A DNA stretch of 64,000 nt, taken from positions 1,302,001-1,366,000 of the forward strand of contig NZ_OV350343.1 of assembly GCF_923868895.1 (NCBI RefSeq). The letters run 5' to 3'. The translations under genes and the position numbers were made by a program. The notes under the pieces are model-generated. The model saw nothing but the letters and a program-made list of their open reading frames with translations. It was not told the origin of the DNA and did not search any database. The DNA comes from Halomonas sp. TD01 (lineage in GTDB: Bacteria > Pseudomonadota > Gammaproteobacteria > Pseudomonadales > Halomonadaceae). Shown here one piece after another: positions 36,099-51,723 of the stretch (the stretch's first letter is position 1; every line of letters begins with the position of its first letter).

Positions 36099-37013
36099 AT
36101 GGAGAGTATTACTGGCGCACTTGGGCCACTGTTTTTATTGATTTTACTGGGCGCTGCCATTGGCTATGGCCGCTGGCCAAGTGCTACGTTTTGGCCGCAA
36201 ATGGAGCGTCTGATCTACTTTGTGCTATTTCCAGCAATGCTGATAGGTACGTTGGCCACTGCTGATGTCAGCCAAGTGCCGGTTGGACGCATAGCATTGG
36301 TACTACTCGGCACTATGGGGGTTTTTGGTCTGTTGCTATGGCGCTGTCGTGGTTACCTTGGTTTAACGCCAGCGGCGTTCACGTCGGTGTTCCAAGGCGC
36401 CGTGCGCTTTAACACCTACGTGGGCGTTGCGGGGGCAGCGGCGCTACATGGCAGCATGGGGGCGACTACCGCTGCAGTGGCGGTGGCGCTTATGGTGCCG
36501 GTGGTGAACGTAATGTGCGTCGCAAGCTTTGTCGCGGCAGGTACGCTGGGTAGTGGAAGCCTTGGCCAAAGTGCCCTTGCACTGGCTAAAAATCCACTGA
36601 TTTTGTCCTGTCTAGCGGGTATCGGGCTCAATCTTTCGGGGGTTGGCTTGCCCGGTTGGAGTCAGGATACAGTAGGGCTGTTGGGTGGTGCGGCGCTGCC
36701 GCTAGGGCTAATTGCCGTGGGTGTGGCGCTTCGCCCAGCGGCACTGTTACGGCTTGATCGTGGCGTGATAGCGACAAATAGCATAAAGCTGATGTTAATG
36801 CCTGCGGTGGTGCTGTTATTAGCGTGGCTGGTGGGGCTGGACCCTATCAGCCGCGATGTGGCGCTGCTGTTTGCAGCGCTGCCTACTGCCACGTCTGCCT
36901 ACATTCTTGCTCGACAGCTGGGTGGTGATGCTGAGCTGATGGCGGCAATTATTACCGGCCAGACGCTGTTAGCGATGCTGACGTTGCCCTTTTGGTTGCA
37001 GTTGGTGGGCTAA
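36099..37013 (+). CDS. AEC-family transporter (auxin efflux carrier superfamily)
   Basis: A 304-aa inner-membrane protein with about ten hydrophobic segments in two inverted halves, of the AEC/bile-sodium-symporter-like group. The N-terminal GPLFLLILLGAAIGYGRW and the late LPTATSAYILARQLGGDAEL are characteristic. Bacterial members carry malonate, malate or other acids; the substrate here is not evident. AAGGAA precedes the ATG. It is followed directly by the repeat array at 37.05-37.75 kb, whose promoter starts 34 bases after its stop. Confidence 0.88.
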   Translation: MESITGALGPLFLLILLGAAIGYGRWPSATFWPQMERLIYFVLFPAMLIGTLATADVSQVPVGRIALVLLGTMGVFGLLLWRCRGYLGLTPAAFTSVFQGAVRFNTYVGVAGAAALHGSMGATTAAVAVALMVPVVNVMCVASFVAAGTLGSGSLGQSALALAKNPLILSCLAGIGLNLSGVGLPGWSQDTVGLLGGAALPLGLIAVGVALRPAALLRLDRGVIATNSIKLMLMPAVVLLLAWLVGLDPISRDVALLFAALPTATSAYILARQLGGDAELMAAIITGQTLLAMLTLPFWLQLVG

Positions 37014-37046: not shown

Positions 37047-37075
37047 TTGACGGGGTAAATGAGAATGATTATATT
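37047..37075 (+). promoter_or_regulatory. strong sigma-70 promoter with overlapping Fur-like box
   Basis: TTGACG (37047-37052), a 17-bp spacer and TATATT (37070-37075) form a near-consensus promoter. Its predicted start, about 37082, is the first base of the first repeat unit. TGAGAATGATTATAT (37060-37074) matches 11 of 14 specified positions of the Fur 7-1-7 palindrome and covers the -10 region, so Fe-Fur should repress it if the match is real. Confidence 0.75.
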
Positions 37076-37081
37076 GTGATT

Positions 37082-37204
37082 GTCAGCGTTTGATGAGACG
37101 TTGGCAACCACGACAGAAACCGCCAGTTTCCTGTCATGGTTTCTCCCTCTCATTGCTAGTCACGGTCTTTTGCCGCTCCCGCTTGGAGCGGCTTTCTTTT
37201 TTTT
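37082..37204 (+). ncRNA. putative small RNA, copy 1 of a four-unit array
   Basis: A transcript of about 123 nt is predicted from the promoter at 37047-37075 to an intrinsic terminator (stem GCCGCTCC 37172-37179, loop CGCTT, GGAGCGGC 37185-37192, then TTTC and eight T). Copy 1 differs from the others in the middle: it lacks 11 bases after CACGAC. No start codon with a ribosome-binding site and reasonable frame is conserved across copies. The single-stranded stretch CTCATTGCTAGTCACGG before the terminator is the best candidate for target pairing and reminds me of the conserved part of Pseudomonas PrrF, which must be checked by alignment. Confidence 0.65.
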
Positions 37205-37254
37205 AATGCGCTACGTTTTTGTGATTTTCCTTGAGATGCCATGCGTAGGCTGTG

Positions 37255-37387
37255 GTCAGCGTTTGATGAGGCGTTGGCAACCACGACGCTATTTCAAAGA
37301 CCAGCGCCAATTTCCTGTCATGGTTTCTCCCTCTCATTGCTAGTCACGGTCTTTTGCCGCTCCCGCTTGGAGCGGCTTTCTTTTTTT
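37255..37387 (+). ncRNA. putative small RNA, copy 2
   Basis: Same body as copy 1 but with the longer centre (CGCTATTTCAAAGACCAGCG) and A for G in the following CAATTTCC. Terminator stem 37356-37363/37369-37376 with T-tract to 37387. The preceding 50-bp spacer has no convincing -10/-35 pair at the right distance, so independent transcription is uncertain. Confidence 0.5.
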
Positions 37388-37437
37388 AATGCTCTACGTT
37401 TTTGTGATTTTCCTTGAGATGCCATGCGTAGGCTGTG

Positions 37438-37570
37438 GTCAGCGTTTGATGAGGCGTTGGCAACCACGACGCTATTTCAAAGACCAGCGCCAGTTTCCTG
37501 TCATGGTTTCTCCCTCTCATTGCTAGTCACGGTCTTTTGCCGCTCCCGCTTGGAGCGGCTTTCTTTTTTT
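37438..37570 (+). ncRNA. putative small RNA, copy 3
   Basis: Near-identical to copy 2, with CAGTTTCC restored. Terminator stem 37539-37546/37552-37559 with T-tract to 37570. The spacer before it carries AATGCTCTACG in place of AATGCGCTACG. No own promoter is evident. Confidence 0.5.
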
Positions 37571-37620
37571 AATGCGCTACGTTTTTGTGATTTTCCTTGA
37601 GATGCCATGCGTAGGCTGTG

Positions 37621-37752
37621 GTCAGCGTTTGATGAGGCGTTGGCAACCACGACGCTATTTCAAAGACCAGCGCCAGTTTCCTGTCATGGTTTCTCCCTTT
37701 CATTGCTAGTCACGGTCTTTTGCCGCTCCCGCTTGGAGCGGCTTTCTTTTTT
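37621..37752 (+). ncRNA. putative small RNA, copy 4
   Basis: Near-identical to copy 3 apart from CCCTTTCATTG for CCCTCTCATTG next to the presumed pairing region. Terminator stem 37722-37729/37735-37742. The T-tract is interrupted after TTTCTTTTTT and the spacer is absent, marking the right end of the array 107 bases before ldhA. Confidence 0.5.
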
Positions 37753-37858: not shown

Positions 37859-38860
<1,002 letters not shown>

Positions 38861-40508: not shown

Positions 40509-40730
40509 CTAGCCGCCGCCGATGGCGTGAACGACTTCTATTTGGTCGCCATTGGCTAAATGCGTTTGAGCAAGCTGGCTTTTGGGCACGATCTGTTCGT
40601 TAATTTCCACAGCGATACGGCGCCCGGTCAAGCCTAATTGCTCAATCAGATCAGCAGCGCTAAGGCCAGCTGCCAGCGTATGCGATTCGCCATTGAGCGT
40701 CAGTTGTATCGACTCATTAGGAGTAGGCAT
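40509..40730 (-). CDS. thiS: sulfur carrier protein ThiS
   Basis: A 73-aa ubiquitin-like protein whose C-terminal glycine is thiocarboxylated and hands sulfur to ThiG. The end reads VVHAIGGG, with the required Gly-Gly, and FNGE-type strands are seen as [16 protein letters not shown] 40730 gives the normal family length; longer frames upstream do not look coding. It lies 40 bases before thiG. ThiF, ThiI and ThiH/ThiO are not in the window. Confidence 0.93.
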
Positions 40731-40835
40731 AACGGTAAGTGTCCCATTCGGTGAGGCAAAACATTGTCTATTGTAGCGGTTTCGCACCGCTCAAGGTATG
40801 TGACAACGTTAATCATCTCAGTGAAATATCGAGTG

Positions 40836-40913
40836 CTTATCTCAGGTACTTATCTCAGGTACTTATCTCAGGTACTTATCTCAGGTACTTATCTCAGGTA
40901 CTTATCTCAAGTG
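40836..40913. repeat. 13-bp tandem repeat, six copies
   Basis: CTTATCTCAGGTA occurs five times without change (40836-40900), followed by a sixth copy with three changes (CTTATCTCAAGTG, 40901-40913). It lies 34 bases before the DUF423 gene and in the probable promoter/leader space between it and divergent thiS. Copy number is likely to vary by slippage. Confidence 0.95.
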
Positions 40914-40946
40914 CTTACAATAAATAGTTATAAACAGGAGTAACCC

Positions 40947-41324
40947 ATGCAGCGAGCAGACAAACCCTGGTGGTGTTTAGTGGCCCTCTCAGGAGCATTA
41001 ACGGTGATACTAGGAGCTTATGCGGCTCACGGGTTGGCATCGCGTACCACTGCTGCCATGGTCGACATCGTTGAAACTGGCGTGCGTTATCAAGCGTGGC
41101 ATACGTTGGCCATGTTAGCGATGCTGGCTTGGCGCAGCCAGGACCCTCAGCCAGGACAGCGAATAGTGCTGGCGCTTTGGGCGTTGGGTATCACGGCGTT
41201 TTCAGGCTCGCTTTACCTGATGGCCCTAGTGGGGCTTAGCGTTGGTGTTGTGACGCCCATCGGTGGTTTGCTGCTGATGGCAGGCTGGTTAGGCTTAGCC
41301 GTTACTGCGTTGCTCAGCCGTTAG
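40947..41324 (+). CDS. DUF423 family small membrane protein
   Basis: A 125-aa protein with four hydrophobic segments (about 8-26, 45-62, 72-90 and 98-121) of the DUF423/YgdD family. Typical residues are GAYAAHGL near the N-terminus, a QAWHTLAML helix and FSGSLYLMALVG. The function is unknown. CAGGAG lies upstream of the ATG. Its last four bases overlap the convergent thioesterase gene, and its leader contains the 13-bp repeat array. Confidence 0.88.
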   Translation: MQRADKPWWCLVALSGALTVILGAYAAHGLASRTTAAMVDIVETGVRYQAWHTLAMLAMLAWRSQDPQPGQRIVLALWALGITAFSGSLYLMALVGLSVGVVTPIGGLLLMAGWLGLAVTALLSR

Positions 41325-47791: not shown

Positions 47792-47819
47792 TTTTAGAAG
47801 CAGTGTTTTAGAAGCAGTG
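47792..47819. repeat. 14-bp tandem duplication after the TonB receptor gene
   Basis: TTTTAGAAGCAGTG is repeated twice without interruption, 17 bases beyond the receptor stop and before its terminator. It looks like simple duplication with no evident role. Confidence 0.85.
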
Positions 47820-47835
47820 TTTTATAAACAATGGA

Positions 47836-49938
47836 TTAGAAGCGATAGTGAACGCTGGCGGTAACGCCTCGTTCTGCGCCGAAGTAGCAGTACTCCAGCG
47901 AGTTGCAGGAAGCCACGTACTCTTTATCCAGCAGGTTGTTCACATTTAGGCGTGTTTCGACCCCTTCAACGCCAATGTGGCTTAGATCGTAGCCAATGGT
48001 GGCATCGACCAGGGTGTAGTCAGGGACGGTTTCAGTGTTGGCTCGGTCGGCGGCAATATCTGCGTAGTGGCGTACGCCAACCCCGACATCTACACCGTTC
48101 AGCCAGCCATCGTTAATCGCGTATTGACCCCACAGCTGCACTTGATGGCGCGGCGAATAGATCGCATTGTTGCCCTGATTGCCGTCGTCGCTTTTTGCGT
48201 AGGTAATATCTGTAAAGCTATAGCCAGCCTGCAAAGAAAGCGCCTCGGTTAGCTGGGTTTGTGCTTCCAGCTCCAGCCCTTGGGATTCAATTTCACCTAC
48301 CGCGCGATAAGGGTCGGATGGCTGCTCCTTGGTTGCGACGTTTTCTTGGCTGATATGGAACAGCGCTGCGCTGAACTGGCTAGCGCTGCCGTTAGGCTGG
48401 AATTTTAGGCCAACCTCCCACTGCTCACCTTCCATCGGCGCTAACAAGTTGCCGTTTTCATCCACAAAACTGGTAGGCGTGAAAGCGGTCGAGTAGCTGG
48501 CATAGGGCGCTACACCGTTATCGAACAGGTACACCACACCAGCACGGCCGCTGAACTGGGTATCGCTAAGTGAGCTGGTGTCACCGCTATCACGGTTGGT
48601 ATTGTCGATATTCACCCAGTCGTAGCGGCCGCCTAGCGTGAAGCGCCAGTTATCGACGGCGATTTGATCCTGTAGATAAACACCCGTTTGGTCTATCTCA
48701 TGGCGTTCACGGATAGGGGCGTAAAATTCAATCGGGCCGCTACCATAGACAGGATTGAAAGCATTAATGGGTTGGAAATACCCAGAAGGCCATGACACGT
48801 CATTTTCTCGCTGTTGATAATCGACCCCAACGAGCAAGGTGTGATCCATAAAGCCGCTGCTGATGGTGGCTTCAAGCTGGTTGTCGATAGTCCAGGCTTC
48901 TAGAGATTCATCACTGCCAGAATAGTAGCGGGTTAATTCATCAGAGGTGGGTGACGTCCAGCCATAGCCATAGACTTGGTTAAGCACCACATCGGAATTG
49001 AGATAACGTAGTAGCTGGCGGCCCGTTACGTCGTCATTAAAGCGATGTTCCAGGGTATAGCCAGCCATGCGCTGAGTACGCTCGTAGGCGTTGTAGTCGG
49101 CTTCGCCATCGAAGAAGTTATTACTGATCTTCTTGCCATTTCTTGGTACTACCGCTCCTTCATAGGGCACGCCGGAGTGGTAGCCGCCTTCTGGCTCATC
49201 TTGAAGATAAGCTTCTACGGTTAGGCTGGTGTCGTCGGTGATATCCCATGTTAGTCGGGGCGCAATGGCATAGCGCTCTTCTTCGGCGGGGCCAAACTGG
49301 GTGTCGGCGGTACTGGCAATGCCGGTCAGGCGAAACGCCACCCGCTGTTCTGCGCCAATCGGCCCAGTGAGGTCAAAGGCGGCACTGCGCTGGTTATTGT
49401 TGCCTACCCGAAAACGTAACTCACCGCTTTGTTCAAATTCAGGGCGCTTACTGTTTAGCGCCACCACACCACCCGGTGACGCGCGGCCGTAGAGCACCGA
49501 GGCGGGGCCTCGCACCACTTCAATGCTGTCTAGAAACCACGGATCGATGCGCATACTGCTATGGGAGTTGGCATCACCCATGACCTTTAAGCCATCTAAG
49601 AAGGTATTGCTCAAACTGCCGTCAGAAAACCCGCGCAATACCAGGTAATCGAAGCGATTGGAGGCACCGACCTGGTTGCTGTAAACACCCGGCGTGTAAT
49701 CGGTAGCGCGCTGAACGGTGCTCACCCCGCGGTGATCCATTTGTTCACGGGTAATGCTAGAAACGCTTTGGGGCGTTTCGATAAAAGGGGTGGTGACTTT
49801 GGTAGCCGCCTGCTGGGCGGTAACGGTGACCGTTGCTAGCTCGGCAGCCTGCTGTGCAAAAGCCGGAGTGGCGGTAAAGGCTATCAGCAGGGCGCTACTA
49901 AATGGAGAGAGGAGAAAGAGGCGTTGTGTTGACGACAT
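47836..49938 (-). CDS. TonB-dependent siderophore receptor (FhuA/FoxA type, hydroxamate-like)
   Basis: A 700-aa outer-membrane receptor. Signal peptide to about FAQ (residue 29); a TonB box-like ELATVTVTA; plug domain about 45-165 with TPQSVSSITREQMD, LRGF and VVRGPASVLYGRASPGGVV; then a 22-strand barrel ending in the C-terminal Phe (SVHYRF). The late CNSLEYCYFGAERGV resembles ferrichrome receptors, so a hydroxamate siderophore is likely. A Fur-like box lies about 45 bases upstream, and an AraC regulator is encoded next to it. No siderophore-synthesis gene is seen, so the ligand may be foreign. Confidence 0.93.
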   Translation of the reverse strand: MSSTQRLFLLSPFSSALLIAFTATPAFAQQAAELATVTVTAQQAATKVTTPFIETPQSVSSITREQMDHRGVSTVQRATDYTPGVYSNQVGASNRFDYLVLRGFSDGSLSNTFLDGLKVMGDANSHSSMRIDPWFLDSIEVVRGPASVLYGRASPGGVVALNSKRPEFEQSGELRFRVGNNNQRSAAFDLTGPIGAEQRVAFRLTGIASTADTQFGPAEEERYAIAPRLTWDITDDTSLTVEAYLQDEPEGGYHSGVPYEGAVVPRNGKKISNNFFDGEADYNAYERTQRMAGYTLEHRFNDDVTGRQLLRYLNSDVVLNQVYGYGWTSPTSDELTRYYSGSDESLEAWTIDNQLEATISSGFMDHTLLVGVDYQQRENDVSWPSGYFQPINAFNPVYGSGPIEFYAPIRERHEIDQTGVYLQDQIAVDNWRFTLGGRYDWVNIDNTNRDSGDTSSLSDTQFSGRAGVVYLFDNGVAPYASYSTAFTPTSFVDENGNLLAPMEGEQWEVGLKFQPNGSASQFSAALFHISQENVATKEQPSDPYRAVGEIESQGLELEAQTQLTEALSLQAGYSFTDITYAKSDDGNQGNNAIYSPRHQVQLWGQYAINDGWLNGVDVGVGVRHYADIAADRANTETVPDYTLVDATIGYDLSHIGVEGVETRLNVNNLLDKEYVASCNSLEYCYFGAERGVTASVHYRF

Positions 49939-51312: not shown

Positions 51313-51723
51313 TTAGGTATCCGCTTTAGGCGGTTCGGGGCTTTCGGTTTTAGTACTTTCGGTTTTAGTACTTTCGGTTTTAGTACTTTCGGTCTTGGTG
51401 CCCTCGCTCTTAGTGCTGTGTGGCTGAACGGGCGTCGGCGGCGCTTCTGCTTCAACCGGGGTGCTGCTTGTTGAGGTAGAGGCTTCCACCGCTGCCTCAA
51501 GGCTGGCCACTTGGCGCTCCAGGGCTTCAACGCGGGAACGCGTGCGCTGCAGTACATCCATCAAAATATCAAAGTCTTCCCGTGACACCAGCTCCAGTCT
51601 GTCAAAGGCGCCACGTACCACCTGCTGTACGCCTTTCTGAATATCTTCCGGGGCTTGGGACGCATTCTGTAAACGATCCCCAATCTGCTGGGCTAAACGG
51701 CTGATGCGATCTTGAGGCGCCAT
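51313..51723 (-). CDS. ubiK: ubiquinone-biosynthesis accessory factor UbiK (YqiC/BMFP family) with a repeat tail
   Basis: Small coiled-coil trimeric protein that supports the Ubi enzyme complex in making ubiquinone. The family core covers about residues 1-85: MAPQDRISRLAQQIGD, then VVRGAFDRLELVSREDFDIL and the C-terminal coiled coil RVEALERQVASLEAAV. Beyond it, a tail of about 50 residues contains Thr-Lys-Thr-Glu-Ser four times, encoded by a 15-bp DNA repeat, so the protein has 136 aa against the usual 85-100. ATG 51723 is chosen because AAGGAGAG precedes it; the frame extends upstream without family likeness. Confidence 0.9.
   Translation of the reverse strand: MAPQDRISRLAQQIGDRLQNASQAPEDIQKGVQQVVRGAFDRLELVSREDFDILMDVLQRTRSRVEALERQVASLEAAVEASTSTSSTPVEAEAPPTPVQPHSTKSEGTKTESTKTESTKTESTKTESPEPPKADT
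51341..51400. repeat. 15-bp in-frame tandem repeat in ubiK
   Basis: CTTTCGGTTTTAGTA occurs three times exactly (51341-51385), followed by a degenerate fourth copy CTTTCGGTCTTGGTG (51386-51400). The 15-bp period keeps the reading frame, so changes in copy number lengthen or shorten the tail by five residues. Confidence 0.95.

Follow-up and report, generated by a model that had tools for sequence, protein, structure and literature searches.

We analyzed a stretch of 64,000 nucleotides from Halomonas sp. TD01 (contig NZ_OV350343.1, positions 1,302,001 to 1,366,000 of the forward strand; hereafter the window), which contains a tandem array of a small RNA (sRNA)-like unit. The array lies on the forward strand between a gene for an AEC-type transporter (Pfam Mem_trans; 36099..37013, +) and a gene for a D-isomer-specific 2-hydroxyacid dehydrogenase (37859..38860, +). 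It consists of four units beginning at 37082, 37255, 37438 and 37621, as originally predicted, and all are direct repeats: a short copy 1 (37082..37203, +, 122 nt) and three copies of a long form, copy 2 (37255..37387, +, 133 nt), copy 3 (37438..37570, +, 133 nt) and copy 4 (37621..37752, +, 132 nt). Spacers of around 50 bp set the units apart, the first of them at 37204..37254 (+). The bodies of about 130 bp described in the original prediction hold for copies 2–4, whereas copy 1 is 11 nt shorter than the long form, the difference lying mid-body. Copies 1 and 3 are 89% identical, and copies 2–4 differ among themselves at two positions inside the transcribed unit, in line with the divergence by a few bases claimed for them. 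Each unit is closed by the same stem and T-tract, as had been noted: a 21-nt intrinsic terminator stem-loop followed by a U-tract, identical in all four copies (37172..37192, 37356..37376, 37539..37559 and 37722..37742, all +). Terminator-like sites in the region are above chance (11 found vs 3.4 expected). A nearly invariant 33-nt core, at 37135..37167 (+) in copy 1, includes CCCUCUCAU and UUGCUAGUCACGG; it is intact in copies 2 and 3 and carries one C-to-T change, at 37699, in copy 4.

The array is by far the strongest tandem repeat of the window, with a Tandem Repeats Finder score of 1234 (period 183, 3.4 copies, 98% matches) compared with 150 for the next best of nine rows. Full matches to the unit in this one-contig genome (4,142,565 bp) were confined to the array's four places, the next-best match being 21 nt long, which rules out a mobile repeat spread over the genome. 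We see next to no chance that the array is an assembly artefact or mobile repeat. Tandem repeats are prone to mis-assembly, and contigs of two relatives (G052 and G076) end inside a unit, but here the genome is a single contig, the copies carry distinguishing substitutions, and six further genomes of the genus have arrays, one of them a single contig with five copies. A hidden protein was also considered and rejected: overlapping open reading frames (ORFs) reach 87 aa, but insertions and deletions in the variable body argue against a conserved frame, in agreement with the earlier statement that no conserved ORF is present.

A single sigma-70-type promoter was detected in the array, TTGACG-17-TATATT (37047..37075, +), with 10 of 12 consensus matches. 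It ends seven bases ahead of 37082 and predicts a start at around that position, so the array does begin where the promoter would start transcription, as first proposed, and the same promoter type stands ahead of the unit throughout the genus. By number alone, promoter-like sites in the region are at chance level (2 found vs 1.5 expected). Over the promoter spacer and −10 lies a Fur-box-like site, GTAAATGAGAATGATTATA (37055..37073, +), which agrees at 14 of 19 positions with the Fur-box consensus GATAATGATAATCATTATC. Judged from sequence, a similar site covers the promoters of most relatives, and the genome carries two genes of the Fur family and one for Hfq. No promoter-like or Fur-box-like site was found upstream of copies 2–4, the first spacer included, and the array thus appears to sit behind one apparently iron-controlled promoter.

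In order to place the unit among known RNAs, it was compared with Rfam. No family reached its gathering score in a scan of the whole window, and the best low-threshold match of the region was RF00444 (PrrF), at 47.3 bits (E 1.1e-6) for copy 1 taken together with its promoter. Copies 2–4 scored 22–25 bits, in part because the first positions of the model are the Fur-type promoter. RyhB, which had been named beside PrrF as a family to test, was absent among the Rfam matches of the region, as were NrrF, OmrA/B, AbcR1/2, Qrr and csRNA. We then used a covariance model, R1, made from 36 units of the genus with their promoters; 40 units had been picked, and those omitted from the alignment were two cuts of a split unit (L084) and units at a contig edge (L085 and L091). 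R1 matches copy 1 at E 1.3e-29 and also recovers copies 2 and 3, which were found by sequence match as well. The unit is present in all 82 genomes of the genus (Vreelandella/Halomonas; DNA search), and within the family R1 matched 258 of 275 genomes. Of 244 genomes in the order, 43 have a match to RF00444 itself, nine of these above the cut-off and all nine in one family (f21). At each of 20 loci drawn from the 56 RF00444 places elsewhere in the order, R1 matched the same place at E < 0.01 (best E per locus 6e-8 to 0.005); these loci include family f21, above the Rfam cut-off, and two from other genera of Halomonadaceae. One locus from another genus of the same family has an intermediate core, UCUCCUCAUCAAGCUAGUCACGGUC. 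The exact core was found in 56 named sequences, titled Vreelandella or Halomonas except for one Halovibrio. Given the reciprocal model matches and the intermediate core, common descent of the unit with PrrF is well supported at the level of sequence, despite a score under the curated threshold. These matches and the presence of the unit across the family argue for an sRNA gene rather than a mere 3′ end of the AEC gene, as the original prediction had held, and bear out its choice of PrrF for a covariance-model test.

In the predicted fold of copy 1 (−44 kcal/mol, z −4.27), an unpaired stretch separates two hairpins from the terminator, and both copy 1 and the genus alignment show the PrrF layout of hairpin, hairpin, single-stranded core and terminator. 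In the alignment of 36 units, 97.6% of cells are paired in the three helices, compared with 32–44% in slid controls. Double-change cells numbered 38 vs 12.2 in shuffles and came from all three helices. Of five measures of covariation, one (the number of further pair types) was not above shuffles (479/500). When run unguided, RNAalifold paired the first loop region with the core instead and gave the first stem another partner; since the loop GAUGAGA is complementary to UCUCAUU of the core, internal competition between loop and core is possible. For a predicted two-unit read-through RNA (37082–37387), a transcript that the layout of the array permits, the lowest-energy fold (−104.5 kcal/mol) has the first and the last terminator arm paired with each other, whereas the centroid (−94.9 kcal/mol) leaves the terminators separate. 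By eye, most of the 36 aligned units have a C that breaks the U-tract after the terminator (UUUCUUUUUU; 37193–37203 and its relatives), which could affect termination strength.

PrrF represses the acnB, sdhC and sodB mRNAs, and we examined these three families for sites matching the core. The CCCUCUCAU segment is the exact complement, over 9 nt, of ATGAGAGGG at the acnB Shine-Dalgarno sequence, and ATGAGAGGG is exact in 14 of 18 acnB leaders of the genus (by eye). The UUGCUAGUCACGG segment covers the sdhC start codon with 12 of 13 bases complementary; there, CCGTGAATAGCAA is exact in 16 of 18 genus sdhC starts (by eye), the remaining two having a single C-to-T change that still allows a wobble pair. 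Of 3000 mononucleotide-shuffled cores, 18 equalled the acnB match and 1 the sdhC match. Judged by these matches, acnB and sdhC are good candidate targets of the core. A wobble-tolerant seed search of the genome yielded a number of hits similar to that of its control (203 forward and 243 reverse vs 214 and 203), and in minimum-energy duplex scans the translation starts were outranked by other sites of the same loci. A search with a Shine-Dalgarno-type pattern returned 18 places, three of them inside the array itself, and eight open frames remained after filtering, among them acnB and a PuuD-like membrane protein. The same search met two group-II-intron-like reverse-transcriptase frames (L267 and L268), which are identical over the 330 residues printed and lie ∼2.8 kb apart in the genome.

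Copy number across the genus, which the original prediction had proposed to check, ranges from one to five. The 82 genomes hold 84 loci, with one copy at 57, two at 19, three at 5, four at 2 and five at 1; one of the two-copy scores is a split unit (G071), two genomes (G026 and G052) give two loci each, and draft assemblies, such as those whose contigs end inside a unit, may hide arrays. Two architectures were found among the multi-copy loci. In 19 genomes each copy at the locus has its own promoter-like site, whereas in seven of the 82 genomes (G000, the genome of the window, and G002, G047, G054, G064, G078 and G080) a promoter precedes the first copy only. These seven single-promoter arrays have 2–5 units and 17 promoterless copies in all; five copies (four of G047 and one of G080) were classed as promoterless, and three with a weaker promoter-like site (L046, L056 and the third of L094) were counted as having a promoter. 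In G016, G018 and G055 (L047, L049 and L074), copies that each have a promoter-like site lie ∼1.3 kb apart, the dehydrogenase gene being located between two of them.

The architecture of the 19 genomes with a promoter-like site for each copy, including the third copy of G031, might suggest that copies 2–4 have weak or non-sigma-70 promoters of their own within the 50-bp spacers and act as four sibling sRNAs, and the spacer is indeed little changed between G000 and G002. We regard this as very unlikely. No promoter-like site was found ahead of copies 2–4, the nearest candidate −10 is not the same in G000 and G002, and no more than about a dozen bases separate the matched units in G047, G064, G078 and G080. 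A relic of the copy-1 promoter was not significant in the 37204..37254 spacer (274 of 1000 shuffles as good) or in that of G002 (222 of 1000); in G054 it was significant ahead of copy 3 (0 of 1000) and not ahead of copy 2 (58 of 1000). Independent promoters for copies 2–4 were rejected on these grounds. We give even less credence to a battery of terminators that shields the downstream dehydrogenase gene from an iron-starvation promoter. The four terminators are intact and on the same strand as that gene, but 57 of the 84 genus loci have a single copy, and the repeats comprise bodies and cores as well as terminators; insulation as the sole role was discarded.

How the promoterless copies arose is suggested by G002 and G047, in which the internal copies have the last copy's body followed by a copy-1 core and terminator, as expected of unequal crossing-over; from their sequence they look like unequal-crossover chimeras. 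In order to assess whether such copies are under constraint, we compared their cores with the reference. The 33-nt core is identical to it in 7 of 17 promoterless copies vs 88 of 103 others, the latter made up of 7 of 7 first copies of the arrays, 45 of 55 single copies and, where each copy has a promoter, 18 of 20 in first position and 18 of 21 in later positions (of 123 copies, 3 that were split or lay at a contig edge were excluded). Fisher tests gave 0.0002 for promoterless copies against all 103 others, 0.006 against later promoter-bearing copies and 0.019 against first copies of the same genomes, values that are indicative only, the copies not being independent. Six of the seven array genomes were then compared with one another, G054 being omitted as too distant. 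Copy 1 showed differences of 0.0% in the core, 1.4% in the body and 3.2% in the promoter; in the last promoterless copy the core differed by 10.3%, the body by 6.9% and the terminator by 6.6%. The intergenic downstream flank differed by 9.5%, close to the figure for the last-copy core, which indicates that constraint on the core has been lost in the last copies. Terminator stems or U-tracts are altered in the last copies of G002, G047 and G078, and a common variant seed, CTCTTTCCTTGCTAGTCAC, occurs in the last promoterless copies of G002, G064, G047 and G078 (L009, L022, L092 and L096) and also in the middle promoterless copy of G078. In the array of the window, the core is unchanged in copies 2 and 3 and has a single difference in copy 4, so this array is probably young.

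These figures bear on whether the promoterless copies are kept for a function. Regulated read-through could yield dimers to tetramers, used whole or cut to monomers, in the manner of PrrH or of CcsR1–4 of Rhodobacter, and the array would then be retained for its dosage or because the polymer itself regulates; such a concatemer would share its mechanism with a simple read-through array and differ in what is selected. It would fit the occurrence of single-promoter arrays of 2–5 units in seven of 82 genomes, the four intact terminators of the present array, the precedent of PrrH, described in PMC10597452 as a read-through of the prrF1 terminator, and the slower change of last-copy bodies (6.9%) than of third codon positions in the AEC gene (10.5–35% in the six genomes). 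We nevertheless consider it unlikely: the core of the last copies has changed about as much as the flank while that of copy 1 has not changed, terminators of last copies are altered in three genomes, and recombination with copy 1 explains the intact internal cores. Also unlikely is a bolder version, in which a single Fur promoter and a ladder of PrrF units would let regulated read-through set the number of seeds per RNA, such that chain length encodes iron or haem status, a generalised form of PrrH. Under that scheme the last unit of four sister genomes, in which a divergent seed, CUCUUUCCUUGC, replaces CUCCCUCUCAUUGC, could reach new targets on read-through only.

We conclude that the locus is probably the PrrF-type iron-sparing sRNA gene of the genus, locally amplified, with copies 2–4 lacking promoters and transcribed by read-through only. 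An iron-sparing repressor is the best reading of the unit's role from its sequence. When iron is scarce, Fur would leave its site over the copy-1 promoter, and RNA polymerase would transcribe copy 1, in most cases going no further than the first terminator. With Hfq as a probable partner, this RNA would then block translation of the iron-using enzymes AcnB and SdhC. Copies 2–4 would have been born by unequal crossing-over from a copy without a promoter, would be transcribed only on read-through of one or more terminators, giving PrrH-like concatemers, and would tend to decay, the last one first. By the same sequence evidence, copy 1 is probably the working gene and copies 2–4 probably have a minor or no selected function. 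The original prediction had taken gene dosage or target divergence as the selected trait, which our results do not support: no promoter was detected ahead of copies 2–4, and promoterless cores are often altered. The single-promoter array is probably a by-product of duplication and not a selected dosage device.

Several observations weigh against the locus being an amplified PrrF-type gene with largely idle extra copies. The 47.3 bits of copy 1 fall short of the RF00444 gathering score of 90 bits, and with strict filters this genome gave no RF00444 match, and neither did the three other genomes of the genus that were shown as unmatched. Copies 2–4 have the first hairpin and the terminator of copy 1 and not its second hairpin, their mid-part is unlike that of copy 1, and their folds are less stable relative to shuffles (z −1.55, −2.07 and −2.14). 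Duplex-energy controls were weak, with 37 of 300 (acnB) and 85 of 300 (sdhC) shuffles as good in this genome, and 9 of 300 and 53 of 300, respectively, when averaged over 18 genomes. Conservation of the sdhC site may come partly from the protein, the site covering the first codons, and sodB, a usual PrrF target, had no convincing start-site match. Lastly, promoterless bodies have changed more slowly than nearby third codon positions, which makes some function possible.

A relative of the AEC gene lies upstream in 9 of the 10 loci checked and the dehydrogenase gene downstream in 4 of the 10, the flanks of these loci being short. Elsewhere in the window, a 13-bp repeat, CTTATCTCAGGTA (40836–40917, 6.3 copies, 97% matches), sits between the divergent ORFs 40509–40787 (−) and 40947–41324 (+), and two other short tandem repeats were observed, at 51341–51393 (15 bp × 3.5, perfect) and at 47792–47843 (14 bp × 3.7, 81%).

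Our analyses add a PrrF-type iron-sparing RNA to the Halomonadaceae, where the Rfam model scores the copy of this genome below threshold. In the part of the literature examined, outside which most subscription papers fall, we found no report of a native PrrF in Halomonas and no match for PrrF with Oceanospirillales; the passages on Halomonas concern the P. aeruginosa PrrF scaffold, which has already been used in this biotechnology chassis (PMC12164125, PMC13414033). The genus also forms a natural series, from one copy, through several with their own promoters, to several behind one promoter, which offers a way to learn under what circumstances sRNA copies are put to use or decay, and how general PrrH-like read-through is.

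Compared with known systems, the unit shares with PrrF1, PrrF2 and PrrH of P. aeruginosa the Fur-type promoter (part of the Rfam model), a similar RNA length, a core followed by a CUAxUCACGGUxUUUUG-like sequence and then the terminator, and tandem duplication. Unlike PrrF, the core here has diverged (CUCCCUCUCAUUGCUAGUCACGG), with a score under that of the Rfam curators, and up to five units stand behind a single promoter, whereas prrF2 of P. aeruginosa has its own. The single-promoter multi-unit array is a new variant of the PrrF-type locus, an unusual architecture that would resemble the PrrF1-PrrF2/PrrH read-through stretched to 2–5 units. RyhB, NrrF and other Fur-controlled sRNAs follow the same logic, an iron-repressed RNA silencing iron-using enzymes; RyhB is iron-repressed and has sdhC among the mRNAs it silences. 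The four CcsR RNAs of Rhodobacter sphaeroides, which are homologous to one another and belong to a different stress regulon, are likewise an array behind one promoter, co-transcribed and freed as monomers by RNase E; each unit here keeps its intrinsic terminator, and the likeness is one of arrangement. NrrF is described as a Fur-controlled iron-sparing sRNA with sdhC among its targets (PMC5586341). PrrH arises only by read-through of the prrF1 terminator (PMC10597452, PMC4211561), and the siblings OmrA/B, AbcR1/2, Qrr and csRNA are likewise multicopy sRNAs, some of them in tandem (PMC4211561).
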